Of a DNA stretch of 64,000 bases, positions 2,343-6,842 are shown piece by piece. The translations under genes and the position numbers were made by a program. The notes under the pieces were generated by a model, which was given only the letters and a program-made list of their open reading frames with translations, made no database searches and was not told the origin of the DNA. Positions within the stretch are counted from its first letter, which is position 1; each line of letters opens with the position of its first letter. Source of the DNA: an uncultured Alistipes sp. (lineage in GTDB: Bacteria > Bacteroidota > Bacteroidia > Bacteroidales > Rikenellaceae); contig CANREN010000003.1 in NCBI GenBank assembly GCA_947629705.1, forward strand, positions 1 to 64,000, read 5' to 3'.

Positions 2343-2825
2343 TTATTTGATCCGTTTGTATGTCATTGTATTCTCCCATGAACCACCATCACCCCAATCA
2401 CCACCATATTCGCTTGCGAACAAAACAAGCTGCGATTTGGTCAGACTTTTAATTTGATAACTCTCTTCTTCAACTTCGTCATCATCGTACCAGATTGTTA
2501 TCGTCAGTGTGTTACCGGAAATCGAGTAATTCAACTTCCATGAGTCGGCATACTTTACTTTACCTTTATCAATTGTACCATACTCCGTCTGTGTGCCGGT
2601 TCCTCCTTCATCGAACGTGTAAGTCCAATACCACCAATGATTCACATCGTCCAAAAGTGGAAAATCCTCCGACCAGGTGCCGTCATCATATCCTTGTTCG
2701 TGGACGATTTTCCAGGTGCCAACGATATTGGCCTCTGTGGCGGGCAGATTGGATTCGTCGTCGTCGGAGCACGCCGCGAACGTGATTGCCGCAAACAAGG
2801 CGGCGCAGAAAATAAGCTTTTTCAT
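2343..2825 (-). CDS. Small lipoprotein, lipocalin-like
   Basis: MKKLIFCAALFAAITFAACSDDDESNLPATEANIVGTWKIVHEQG...; lipobox FAAC and the NIVGTWK start of lipocalin-like domains. The 238-aa track ORF is over-extended upstream. Confidence 0.8.
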   Translation of the reverse strand: MKKLIFCAALFAAITFAACSDDDESNLPATEANIVGTWKIVHEQGYDDGTWSEDFPLLDDVNHWWYWTYTFDEGGTGTQTEYGTIDKGKVKYADSWKLNYSISGNTLTITIWYDDDEVEEESYQIKSLTKSQLVLFASEYGGDWGDGGSWENTMTYKRIK

Positions 2826-2885
2826 TTGTTTAAGAATTTGTTTGTTCGTTAATAATCGTTTCGAAGCCCTCGGTTCGGGATATAC

Positions 2886-3124
2886 GGACAAACAAAAAGC
2901 GCGGACTTCCTCGCAAGATGCCGGATTCTGCGGTCTTCCACAACCTTGTCCCCGAACAACGGAATAAAGCCCACGCTGGATAAACACAGCATGGGCGTCA
3001 AACTTTATTCCTTCGGGGACATTCGTGATAAGTGGAAGTTTCAGAATCCCGAAATACAAGCTAACGCCTTTTGTTTATATGTCCTTGCAATGTTACTGTT
3101 TCATAGGCAAAAAACGTTTGAAAT
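2886..3124 (-). ncRNA. Candidate structured ncRNA with 6S-like rod architecture
   Basis: Nested helices 3069-3084/2886-2897, 3042-3049/2923-2930, 3032-3038/2935-2941, 3012-3021/2947-2956, 3003-3011/2961-2969, 2987-2996/2969-2978. The last contains a pair that is G.U in minus-strand RNA and A.C in plus-strand RNA. Consensus promoter immediately upstream. Confidence 0.55.
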
Positions 3125-3129
3125 TTTTA

Positions 3130-3160
3130 CAAAGATAGTGCAATCCGTCCAAAATTCAAA
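3130..3160 (-). promoter_or_regulatory. Bacteroidota promoter TTTG-N19-TATCTTTG
   Basis: CAAAGATA at 3130-3137 and CAAA at 3157-3160 on the plus strand; exactly 19 nt spacing. Confidence 0.75.
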
Positions 3161-3299
3161 ATTTTTCGGCCGCGAGCTCTCGCCATGCACGGCCGACGCT
3201 CCGCAAAAAAGAAGCCGGAACCGAAAATCGCACCCTTCTTATAAGAGAGGGGGCCGCAACTTTGCGCTGCAGCCCCTTCCTGCAAAATAGTGCGAACTG

Positions 3300-6200
3300 T
3301 CAGTATTTCAGCTCGGCGAGACGACGGTAACCGTTGTACCGCCATTGAGCGTTCTTCTCGGCAGCCTGGAAGAGCTCCTCGGCCTCGGTCGGGAAGATCT
3401 TCTGGAGCGAAGTGTAACGCACCTCTTTCTTCAGGAAATCCTGGAACTTCGACCAATCGGGCTCTTTCGAATCGAGCACGAACGGATTCTTGCCCTCGGC
3501 CTCCAACTGCGGGTTGAAGTGCCACAGGTGCCAGTAGCCGCAAGCTACGGCCTCTTTGCCGACGGTCTGCGTACGGGTCATGCCGCCCTTGATACCGTGG
3601 TTGATACACGGAGCGTAGGCGATGATCAACGACGGGCCCGGATAAGCCTCGGCCTCTTTCAGCACGTTGAACAGCTGCTGCTGCGAAGCGCCGATCGAAA
3701 CTTGAGCGACATAGACATAACCGTAGGTCATGGCCATCGCGCCGAGGTCTTTCTTTCGGATGCGCTTGCCGCCCGAAGCGAACTTGGCAACGGCGCCTAC
3801 TGGCGTCGATTTCGACGACTGGCCGCCCGTATTGGAGTAAACCTCGGTGTCGACTACGAGAATGTTGACGTCGGCACCCGATGCGAGGACGTGATCCACG
3901 CCGCCGTAACCGATATCGTAACCCCAACCGTCGCCACCGATGATCCACTGCGATTTCTTGACGAGCCAATCCTTGTGCTCCAGAATCTGTTTGCAGTAGT
4001 CGCAGCCGCAAGCCTCCATCATCGGAACCAAGCGGGCCGTAACCTCGGCCGAACGAACCGACGAACCGCGGTTGGCGATCCACTCCTTCATGACGCCCTT
4101 CAACTCGTCGGAGCACTTTTCGCAATTCGCGATGGCAGCTTCCATCGTGGCCTGAATACGGTCGCGGAGCTTCTCGATACCGATATGCATACCGAGACCG
4201 AACTCGGCATTATCCTCGAAGAGCGAGTTGGCCCAAGCCGGGCCTTGACCCTTGGCGTTGGTGCAATAGGGGGTCGACGGAGCCGAACCGGAGTAGATCG
4301 AGGTGCAACCCGTAGCGTTGGCCACCATCATCTTGTCGCCGAAGAGCTGCGAAATCGCCTTAATGTAGGGAGTTTCGCCGCAACCGGCGCAGGCACCCGA
4401 GAACTCGAACAACGGCTGGGCGAATTGCAGGTTCTTGACCGACTTGGTCTTGTCGACCACCTCTTTGTAACCGATATGCTTGGTAATGTAGTCCCAGTTG
4501 GCAGCCTGTTTCTGCTGCTCCTCGAGCGGACGCATGACGAGCGCCTTCTCCTTGGCGGGGCAGACATCGACGCAGTTGTTGCAACCCGTACAGTCGAGCG
4601 GCGACACCTGGATGCGGAACTTGTAGGTCTTCGTCTCGCCGAGACCCTGTTTCCATTCCGCGCCCGAAGCGGCAGCCTCCTCCTCGGTTGCAAGGAACGG
4701 ACGGATGGCAGCGTGCGGGCAGACGTAGGCGCACTGGTTGCACTGGATACAGTTCTCGATCTTCCACTCGGGCACGTTCACGGCGATGCCGCGTTTTTCC
4801 CAGGCGGCCGTACCGTTCTCCCACGTACCGTCCTCACGGCCGTTGAATGCCGATACGGGCAGTCGGTCGCCTTTGAGGGCGTTGATCGGGTCGACGATAT
4901 TGCGGACGAACTCCGGACGAGCCGAATCCACCGCAGCGGCAGCCTCCTTGACCTCGATGCCGGCCCATTCGGCAGGCACCTCGATCTTCTCGACTGCGCT
5001 GCCGCCGGCATCGACGGCCGCATAGTTCATGTTGACGATATCCTCGCCCTTCTTGCCGTAAGACTTCAGAATGGCGTGTTTCATCTCCTCGACGGCCTTC
5101 TCGAACGGAATGACGTTCGCGATCTTGAAGAACGCCGACTGCATGATGGTGTTCGTCCGCGAGCCCAGGCCCAATTCGGCGGCAATCTTCGTCGCGTTGA
5201 TGATATAGAAATTGATATTGTTCTTGGCCAAATAGACCTTCATGTGGTCGGGCAGCGTCGCGCAGGTCGTCGCGGCGTCATGCACCGAGTTCAAGAGGAA
5301 CGAACCGCCCTTCTTGAGTCCTTTCAGCACGTCGTATTTGTCGACATACGACGGAACGTGGCAAGCCACGAAGTCGGGCGTCGTAACCAAATAGGGCGAG
5401 GTGATGGGCAGATCGCCGAAACGCAGGTGCGACGAGGTGTAACCGCCCGACTTCTTCGAGTCGTAGGAGAAATAGGCCTGGCAGTACTTGTTCGTCGAAC
5501 CGCCGATGATCTTGATCGAGTTCTTGTTGGCACCCACCGTACCGTCGGCGCCCAAACCGAAGAACAGGGCTTCGAACGTACCCGGTTTGGCGAGCGAAAT
5601 CTCCTCGCCGACGGGCAGCGAACGGAACGTAACGTCGTCGACGATACCCACCGTGAACTGGTTTTTCGGTTCGTTGGCTTTCAGATTCTCGAATACGGCC
5701 AGCACCTGCGCCGGAGTGGTGTCCTTCGACGAAAGGCCGTAGCGGCCGCCGATGATGAGGGGCTTGCGTTCGGCGGGAATACCCTTGCAGGTGGCGAAAG
5801 CCTCCACCACGTCGAAGTAGAGCGGTTCGCCGTTGGCACCGGGCTCTTTCGTGCGGTCGAGTACGCAGATGCGCTTGACCGTCTCGGGCAGCACGGCACC
5901 CAGATACTTGGCCGAGAACGGACGATAAAGGTGAACCGTAACGACGCCGACCTTCTCGCCCCTGGACAGCAGGTAATCGACCGTCTCCTTGACGGTCTCC
6001 GTAACGGAACCCATCGCGATAATGATATTTTCGGCATCCTCGGCACCGTAGTAGACGAACGGTTTGTATTCGCGGCCGGTGATCTTCGAAATCTCCTTCA
6101 TCGTCTCGGCAACCAGGTCGGGCACGGCCTCGTAGAATTTGTTGGAAGCCTCGCGGGTCTGGAAATAGATATCGGGGTTCTGGGCGGTGCCGCGCGTTAC

Positions 6201-6842
6201 GGGGTGCTCGGGGTTCAGGGCGCGTTCGCGGAAGGCTTTCAGCGCATCGCGGTCGAGCAGCGAAGTCAGCGCGGCCTCGTCGATGAGCTCGATCTTCTGA
6301 ATCTCATGCGAGGTGCGGAATCCGTCGAAGAAGTGCAGGAACGGCACGCGGGATTTCAGCGCGACGAGGTGTGCGATACCGGCCAAATCCATGACCTCCT
6401 GCACCGACGACGAGACCAGCATGGCGAAACCGGTCTGACGGGTCGCCATGACGTCCTGATGATCGCCGAAGATCGACAGCGACTGCGCAGCCAATGCGCG
6501 GGCCGAGACATGGAAGACGCCCGGGAGCAATTCGCCGGAGATCTTGTACATGTTGGGGATCATCAGCAGCAGGCCCTGCGAAGCGGTGAAGGTCGAAGTC
6601 AGCGCACCGCTCTGCAACGAGCCGTGCACGGCACCGGCGGCACCGGCCTCGGACTGCATCTCGATCACCTTGACGGTCTCGCCGAAAATGTTCTTGCGGC
6701 CTTGAGCGGCCCACTCGTCAACCAGCTCGGCCATGGTCGAAGAGGGCGTGATGGGATAGATGGCTGCCACTTCGGAGAACATGTAAGCCACATGCGCCGC
6801 AGCGTAGTTACCATCACAGGTAATGAATTTCTTTTCTGCCAT
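3300..6842 (-). CDS. nifJ: Pyruvate:ferredoxin (flavodoxin) oxidoreductase
   Basis: 1180 aa; MAEKKFITCDGNYAAAHVAYMFSEVAAIYPITPSSTMAE, two 4Fe-4S motifs (CIQCNQCAYVCPH, CTGCNNCVDVCP), TPP region GDGWGYDIGYGG. Confidence 0.97.
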   Translation of the reverse strand: MAEKKFITCDGNYAAAHVAYMFSEVAAIYPITPSSTMAELVDEWAAQGRKNIFGETVKVIEMQSEAGAAGAVHGSLQSGALTSTFTASQGLLLMIPNMYKISGELLPGVFHVSARALAAQSLSIFGDHQDVMATRQTGFAMLVSSSVQEVMDLAGIAHLVALKSRVPFLHFFDGFRTSHEIQKIELIDEAALTSLLDRDALKAFRERALNPEHPVTRGTAQNPDIYFQTREASNKFYEAVPDLVAETMKEISKITGREYKPFVYYGAEDAENIIIAMGSVTETVKETVDYLLSRGEKVGVVTVHLYRPFSAKYLGAVLPETVKRICVLDRTKEPGANGEPLYFDVVEAFATCKGIPAERKPLIIGGRYGLSSKDTTPAQVLAVFENLKANEPKNQFTVGIVDDVTFRSLPVGEEISLAKPGTFEALFFGLGADGTVGANKNSIKIIGGSTNKYCQAYFSYDSKKSGGYTSSHLRFGDLPITSPYLVTTPDFVACHVPSYVDKYDVLKGLKKGGSFLLNSVHDAATTCATLPDHMKVYLAKNNINFYIINATKIAAELGLGSRTNTIMQSAFFKIANVIPFEKAVEEMKHAILKSYGKKGEDIVNMNYAAVDAGGSAVEKIEVPAEWAGIEVKEAAAAVDSARPEFVRNIVDPINALKGDRLPVSAFNGREDGTWENGTAAWEKRGIAVNVPEWKIENCIQCNQCAYVCPHAAIRPFLATEEEAAASGAEWKQGLGETKTYKFRIQVSPLDCTGCNNCVDVCPAKEKALVMRPLEEQQKQAANWDYITKHIGYKEVVDKTKSVKNLQFAQPLFEFSGACAGCGETPYIKAISQLFGDKMMVANATGCTSIYSGSAPSTPYCTNAKGQGPAWANSLFEDNAEFGLGMHIGIEKLRDRIQATMEAAIANCEKCSDELKGVMKEWIANRGSSVRSAEVTARLVPMMEACGCDYCKQILEHKDWLVKKSQWIIGGDGWGYDIGYGGVDHVLASGADVNILVVDTEVYSNTGGQSSKSTPVGAVAKFASGGKRIRKKDLGAMAMTYGYVYVAQVSIGASQQQLFNVLKEAEAYPGPSLIIAYAPCINHGIKGGMTRTQTVGKEAVACGYWHLWHFNPQLEAEGKNPFVLDSKEPDWSKFQDFLKKEVRYTSLQKIFPTEAEELFQAAEKNAQWRYNGYRRLAELKY

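Follow-up and report, generated by a model that had tools for sequence, protein, structure and literature searches.

A multicopy structured RNA family of Bacteroidota, absent from Rfam 15, as a probable cis-acting 5' leader of surface-protein genes

The noncoding segment in front of a lipoprotein gene in the 64,000-nucleotide stretch of DNA analyzed here (the window) is one copy of a large structured-RNA family that occurs across Bacteroidota and is absent from Rfam 15. The family has a covarying, rod-shaped structure on a defined strand, a position in front of genes, multiple copies per genome, an excess of minimal open reading frames (ORFs) upstream of the rod, an apical strand with two complementary partners, and portability between unrelated genes. 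We consider it a new cis-acting 5'-leader RNA family for which, judging from sequence features, transcription attenuation by pairing of the apex with the tail is the likeliest mechanism; in the order to which the window belongs, the mini-ORF is a probable input.

Promoter, fold and strand of the window element

The promoter claimed in an earlier note on this DNA could be read straight from the sequence: on the minus strand, a −33 box TTTG (3160-3157) of the Bacteroidota type is followed, after a 19-nt spacer, by the −7 box TATCTTTG (3137-3130), which places the predicted transcription start at about 3124. The same note had seen no credible coding sequence behind this promoter. This holds for 3124-2826, except that a mini-ORF of 3 codons, ATG AAA CAG TAA (MKQ*, 3104-3093), had been overlooked; its start context, GCCT-ATG, is shared with ordinary genes of the genus. 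The conserved RNA core, formed by helices P1 to P6, occupies 2892-3079 of the minus strand and is matched by the two covariance models described below with 186.4 bits (R1) and 149.8 bits (R2). The gene led by the RNA encodes a lipoprotein with a lipocalin-like domain (PF13648; 2343-2825, minus strand), and its ATG lies 66 nt past the core.

Folding of the minus strand from 3090 to 2880 gave a minimum free energy of −90.1 kcal/mol, compared with −56.1 ± 4.1 kcal/mol for shuffled sequences (z = −8.34, none of 200 as low). The corresponding structure is a single nested rod that contains all of the helices named earlier. From the base of the rod upward on the minus strand, the 5' strand of P1 (ACAAAAGGCGU, 3064-3074) pairs with 2892-2902, that of P2 (GGAUUCUG, 3042-3049) with 2923-2930, that of P3 (CUUCCAC, 3032-3038) with 2935-2941, that of P4 (UGUCCCCGAA, 3012-3021) with 2947-2956, that of P5 (GGAAUAAAG, 3003-3011) with 2961-2969 and that of the apical P6 (GCCCAUGCUG, 2987-2996) with 2969-2978, the innermost pair of P5 competing with P6 for 2969. 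In P6, one U.G wobble is fixed in 54 of 71 sequences of the family. The paired ends that had been described are present in the window, but the additional GGACA/UGUCC pairing reaches past P1 of the family and is not conserved family-wide.

The plus strand gave a poorer fold (−76.1 kcal/mol, z = −6.8). The strand argument put forward earlier, that the pair 2974/2991 is G.U in the minus-strand RNA and C.A in the plus-strand RNA, is correct. Separate evidence comes from the family as a whole, in which sense copies mostly scored about 60-190 bits and antisense copies at most about 44 bits; the large excess of the sense over the antisense score fixes the strand. The U.G wobble of P6, kept in most of the family, points to the same strand.

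The surroundings of the element contain further hairpins. Just past the pyruvate:ferredoxin oxidoreductase gene (3300-6842), a GC-rich, terminator-like hairpin of 11 bp with a pyrimidine tail is found at 3250-3276 on the minus strand; it overlaps the best chance-level match of a permissive Rfam scan over 2400-3700. On the 3' side of the lipoprotein gene, just downstream of an ORF ending at 2087, a near-perfect inverted repeat at 2095-2148 (GTACAGCCTTTTATGAGACCTCAAAGTCTCATAAAAGGCTGTAC) with a stem of about 20 bp and a run of A before the stem is probably a bidirectional terminator.

Covariation, spread and gene context of the family

BLAST of the window element against its own genome yielded three more divergent copies. 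In an alignment of these four seed copies every helix is kept, with the sequences of P2, P3 and P4 changed on both sides; the P2 strands, for instance, read GGATTCTG/CAGAATCC, GGTCGCTA/TAGCGACC, GGTTCATGA/TCATGAACC and TGCTTTTCGA/TCGAAAAGCA. Covariance model R1 was built from the four seed copies and R2 from 71 copies. The covariation among relatives that the earlier note had named as a check was found: in the 71-copy alignment, 49 of 54 pairs are doubly substituted. Standard pairs made up 92.1% of its cells as against 67.0% with shuffled partners and 39-50% with slid strands, and these controls are the fair comparison since the alignment had been fitted to the structure. P2 is hypervariable in sequence and always paired (97% of cells), and P3, with 99.8% of cells paired, showed strong covariation. 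Pairing amounted to 93.4% in an order-wide alignment of 50 copies and to 89.0% in an alignment of 19 copies from outside the window's order. The initial proposal of a structured minus-strand RNA behind a real promoter is correct, with very strong support.

R1 gave matches in 27 of 41 genomes, comprising the source genome and its relatives. With R2, the family was detected in 85 of 197 genomes of an order sample (about 43%), distributed over 68 of 147 genera, in 59 of 244 genomes of a class sample at E ≤ 1e-6, and in 36 of 299 genomes of a phylum sample. The highest number of copies in one genome was 29. The source genome contains 11 R2 matches at E < 1e-5, four belonging to the main type and the other seven being more diverged. 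Spurious matches were few, about 0.5 Mb of loci yielding essentially just the elements and their own antisense shadows.

The diverged subtype of the source genome (L087-L093, at C10:45627, C23:7343, C23:116, C12:17795, C5:99440, C16:2707 and C12:54785) is mostly longer (165-220 nt), scores 45-68 bits, has its promoter mostly close to P1 and mostly lacks a mini-ORF. One genome of another taxonomic family carries many copies (L124-L136) with a near-identical promoter and leader upstream and with AGGAGG-like stretches, and several of its contigs have an end 200-300 bp upstream of a copy. Near one further RNA copy, a group II intron match (RF00029) was seen at L101:214-289.

The initial suggestion had been a 6S or Bacteroidales-1 RNA, or something new, and it is the last branch that survives. 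No Rfam family reached threshold anywhere in the window, and the proposed cmscan comparison, covering 6S and Bacteroidales-1, returned no match to these two families at gathering threshold or at E ≤ 10. Permissive scans (E ≤ 10 over 2400-3700, and E ≤ 1) produced chance-level matches only, none of them to 6S, Bacteroidales-1 or Flavo-1, and in 20 related element-carrying loci an unrelated tRNA and a group II intron were the only Rfam matches. On the basis of these scans of the window and the 20 loci, 6S, Bacteroidales-1 (RF01693) and Flavo-1 (RF01705) were rejected. Flavo-1, which has been reported in some 5' transcribed regions (PMC9723704), Bacteroidales-1 and 6S-Flavo (RF01685) are likewise structured RNAs of Bacteroidota, and none of them matches the window or the 20 loci; a genome-wide search for RF01685 also gave no match, but its positive controls were silent as well. 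BLAST against phage and plasmid sequences gave no match. No description of the family was found in the freely readable literature searched, so that an unnamed listing is possible. A computational screen of human microbiomes (PMC8040213) includes candidates from Bacteroidetes that are palindromic or come from 5' UTRs, and part of the rod family may be listed among these HMP2 candidates without interpretation.

In 129 of 138 distinct, phylogenetically non-independent copies, a same-strand ORF with 60 or more codons starts within 300 nt, at a median distance of 61 nt past the rod. By a simple and crude pattern rule applied identically to both sets, 92 of these 129 led ORFs are signal-peptide-like, compared with 76 of 309 other ORFs of the same loci (Fisher p = 1.4e-19); a lipobox was present in 36 of the 129 and in 27 of the 309. 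The TAnnTTTG box was found within 110 nt upstream in 100 of 138 copies, whereas it occurs in 7 of 116 gaps between rod and gene, which usually measure 40-110 nt. With the promoter located upstream of the rod and rarely in the gap, the rod is most simply a 5' leader, a role that we regard as very probable. The outcome that was to refute the initial proposal, a long lipoprotein mRNA leader and no discrete RNA, comes close to the truth as far as the leader is concerned, but here the leader itself belongs to a conserved family of RNAs. For copies beyond the order, the promoter mostly stands directly before P1; several copies there lead SusC-like receptors, response regulators or lipoproteins, and for several the next ORF is 138-300 nt away or was not found. 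A small HTH-type protein of about 70-90 amino acids (...RAELQRQERGVSWLARHLACDRSNVYRIF...) recurs directly behind the RNA at L087, L042, L070 and L142, and at least three of these loci continue with a gene for a secreted or outer-membrane protein; this protein may be a dedicated regulator.

The rod is portable. Among 146 pairs of copies with rods at least 80% identical, 137 lead proteins with unrelated mature parts, relatedness being decided by a simple score cut-off. The window rod itself is 96% identical to a rod in another species of the genus, where a different lipoprotein is led. For L147 and L149, from two genomes of one genus, and for L088 and L092, both from the source genome, identity extends from the rod into the signal-peptide region and then stops; in one of these pairs it also takes in the promoter. 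The leader can thus be regarded as a module that is joined, in some cases along with the secretion signal, to different surface proteins. L088, a member of the diverged subtype, leads a close paralogue of the window lipoprotein, so that gene and RNA subtype have been reshuffled. In several assemblies contigs end 150-400 bp from a copy, as would be expected if the modules are repeated or strain-variable.

Mini-ORF and alternative pairing of the apical strand

In most copies of the order, the stretch from promoter to rod contains an ATG with a stop codon almost immediately after it. This mini-ORF has 0-5 codons, usually an ATG with 0-2 further codons and a stop, and its types include M* (11 copies), MK* (10), MT* (8), MI* (4), MIK* (4), the MKQ* of the window and others. 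Starting from the ATG nearest the rod, a stop was reached within at most two codons in 72 of 109 cases; when the 60 nt following the ATG were shuffled, the mean was 21.8 and the maximum 31, and the same count in the other two frames was 10 and 21. When the GCCTATG context was absent, minimal ORFs were still present in 36 of 62 leaders (null mean 13.8, maximum 22). In the genus of the window, GCCTATG at such a distance from the promoter is an ordinary gene start context too. At 30 GCCTATG-promoter sites of this genus, those without a rod mostly open long frames, for example MRKLLTLVAVVT and MKRLYTLLFALL, and all seven followed by a rod open frames of 1-6 codons; in the source genome, four of four sites with GCCTATG behind a promoter are rod leaders. 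GCCTATG as an RNA motif was rejected as the sole explanation, since it starts ordinary genes as well and since the minimal ORF also occurs, in other families, where GCCTATG is lacking. The excess over the shuffle and frame controls, taken with the start context of the genus, points to a short upstream ORF under selection and leads us to regard the mini-ORF as a genuine site of initiation, which is probably translated.

Outside the order, the copies examined showed no mini-ORF, and it was likewise missing from most of the diverged subtype of the source genome. Its absence from copies that start close to P1 shows that it is not essential to the core. We estimate that a ribosome occupying the mini-ORF would leave about 10-20 nt uncovered before P1, a point that counts against the mechanism proposed below. 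At one locus (L206), a promoter and a GCCT-ATG-AAA-CAT-TAA leader are present with no detectable rod; it is possibly a degenerate copy or another type of structured leader.

The second feature concerns the apex. The apical 3' strand, GCGYGGGC in the family and GCGUGGGC in the window (2969-2976, minus strand), pairs in P6 with GCUCRCGC. Its GCGYGGG portion has a second complementary partner in the 3' tail CCRCGC (GUCCGCGC, 2899-2906, minus strand), which overlaps the 3' strand of P1; we call this alternative pairing helix T. A U-tract follows helix T directly, with five U in the window copy (2894-2898, minus strand) and a T run of 5-8 at the 3' end of 123 of 138 copies. In an alignment that had not been fitted to the T pairing, helix T showed 26 doubly changed cells as compared with 8.4 after shuffling (0 of 500 as high), the exchanges including U-A/C-G, G-C/A-U and C-G/U-A. 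Mean energies were −13.4 kcal/mol for the local P6 hairpin, −12.9 kcal/mol for the T duplex and −5.0 kcal/mol for T with shuffled tails, so that P6 and T are near balance on the family average; the window copy favors P6 (−18.3) over T (−14.3).

Because the CGC of the tail is also part of P1, T competes with both P1 and P6. At the level of sequence, the family thus combines the order promoter-RNA-gene with two mutually exclusive pairings, P6/P1 and T, of which one is terminator-like and adjoins a U-tract, and this dual complementarity of the apical strand suggests a switch. A strictly nested terminator T would have to dissolve P2-P5, which are strongly favored by the full rod (−90 kcal/mol), and was judged unlikely; T was kept as a pseudoknot or alternative state. 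Since T needs either a pseudoknot or the loss of P2-P5, termination is something that we infer, and T in its pseudoknotted form is a putative terminator. Attenuation through helix T is therefore offered as a tentative reading.

Further complementarity surrounds P3. The bases flanking its 3' strand (GGY/RCC) are mutually complementary in 136 of 137 sequences, mostly with 8 nt between them, and the exchanges comprise U-A (119), U-G (8), C-G (8), A-U (1) and one mismatch. On the alignment the effect was modest, with 12 doubly changed cells against 7.0 after shuffling (16 of 500). On the 5' side of P3, complementarity of GAAA and UUUC was weak (116 of 140; shuffled mean 105.8, maximum 114), and this 5' stem is poor in the window. 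P3 may form a 7-bp loop-loop kiss, or its flanks may form a further alternative helix.

Proposed mechanism, alternatives and significance

The best explanation, which we favor with moderate confidence, is that the RNA acts in cis as a 5'-leader attenuator of genes for surface and secreted proteins and belongs to a family spread through Bacteroidota. Transcription would start at the TAnnTTTG promoter and cover first the minimal ORF (0-5 codons) where there is one, as in most copies of the order, then the 165-185-nt rod and finally the gene, which encodes a surface or secreted protein. The rod would have two states. In the first, tail and U-tract would be held by P1 (AAAAGCG/CGCUUUU) and P6, and transcription would continue into the gene. 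In the other, the apical GCGYGGG would pair with the tail CCRCGC right before the U-tract, and helix T together with this tract would form an intrinsic-terminator-like or pseudoknotted structure by which expression is stopped or reduced. Translation of the mini-ORF would be one input to the switching of the rod. A more far-reaching version is doubtful: a phylum-wide portable switch in which the start-stop ORF would gate the rod, the apical strand would toggle between the local hairpin and a terminator-like tail pseudoknot, and leader, promoter and signal peptide would, for some copies at least, travel as one unit that is fitted to unrelated surface proteins.

Leader attenuators have precedents in the phylum. 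The leader peptide of the tetracycline-regulated resistance gene tetQ reportedly has 3 codons. The tetQ leader of Bacteroides CTnDOT is reported to be a translational attenuator (Wang et al. 2005, cited in PMC5418344). Compared by description, both are Bacteroidota mRNA leaders with a very short upstream ORF and hairpins downstream; unlike tetQ, a single gene, the rod is phylum-wide and multicopy and leads mostly surface-protein genes. The leaders of amino-acid operons in Flavobacterium are leader-peptide/transcription attenuators (PMC9723704), and they share with the rod a promoter, a short ORF, mutually exclusive helices, and a GC helix with U-tract before the gene. In the rod, however, the ORF is a start-stop or has 1-5 codons with no conserved amino-acid content, the alternative helix joins the apex and the tail of a 170-nt rod, and many unrelated gene families are led.

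The rod could instead be a multicopy stand-alone sRNA with trans activity whose 3' end lies at its own U-tract; its place before surface-protein genes would then reflect regulation of neighbors or shared promoters. It forms a discrete, conserved unit that has a promoter of its own and, at the 3' end, a GC helix and U-tract, it has many paralogues per genome, and FopS, a paralogous sRNA family of Bacteroidota, provides a precedent for multicopy noncoding RNAs in the phylum (PMC11697453). FopS sRNAs, however, have seed regions and come from intergenic, antisense or 3'-UTR positions, whereas the rod is found in 5'-leader position with covarying helices, and its most variable parts, P2-P4, are paired rather than open seeds. 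Moreover, the scarcity of promoter motifs in the short gaps between RNA and gene would leave the gene promoterless, and a translated 5' mini-ORF fits an mRNA leader better, which makes an independent sRNA unlikely.

A constitutive 5' module of surface-protein mRNAs, in which the rod protects the mRNA or aids its placement for secretion with no switching, would account for the strong tie to signal-peptide genes, for the identity that runs from the RNA into the signal-peptide region in L088/L092 and L147/L149, and for the high stability of the rod. It leaves unexplained the covarying helix T and the common weak U.G in P6, and the genes led include some for cytoplasmic proteins, HTH proteins or response regulators; we regard it as rather improbable. 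For a miniature transposable element or another DNA hairpin with no RNA function (a MITE or an attC-like site), one could cite the near-palindromic and multicopy nature of the element, similar copies beside unrelated genes and the contigs that end near copies. Such an element should be indifferent to orientation, yet the copies keep a fixed orientation relative to promoter and gene and a similar distance from both, and sense copies far outscore antisense ones. In addition, paralogues keep their pairing though the helix sequences differ fully, as selection on RNA predicts and recent DNA copies would not show. This possibility is very remote and was rejected on strand asymmetry, fixed promoter and gene orientation, and covariation. 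A divergent 6S RNA, similar in length and in its rod shape with internal loops, is the least credible candidate of all, as 6S would be expected in one or few free-standing copies and the window has no Rfam 6S match, with about 11 copies in the source genome, up to 29 elsewhere, and 129 of 138 in leader position.

Bacteroidota dominate the gut and many polysaccharide-rich habitats by means of surface lipoproteins and outer-membrane proteins. To our knowledge, few leader RNAs of known mechanism have been described in the phylum. If the proposal is true, a covarying family present in about 43% of the order genomes sampled, with as many as 29 copies in each and a tie to surface-protein genes, would represent a major unrecognized layer of surface-protein control. 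The minimal ORFs (ATG-TAA, ATG-ACA-TAA, ATG-AAA-TAA) would offer a natural system for the role of a start-stop frame in a bacterial leader, and the swapping of modules suggests how bacteria may place new surface proteins under ready-made control.
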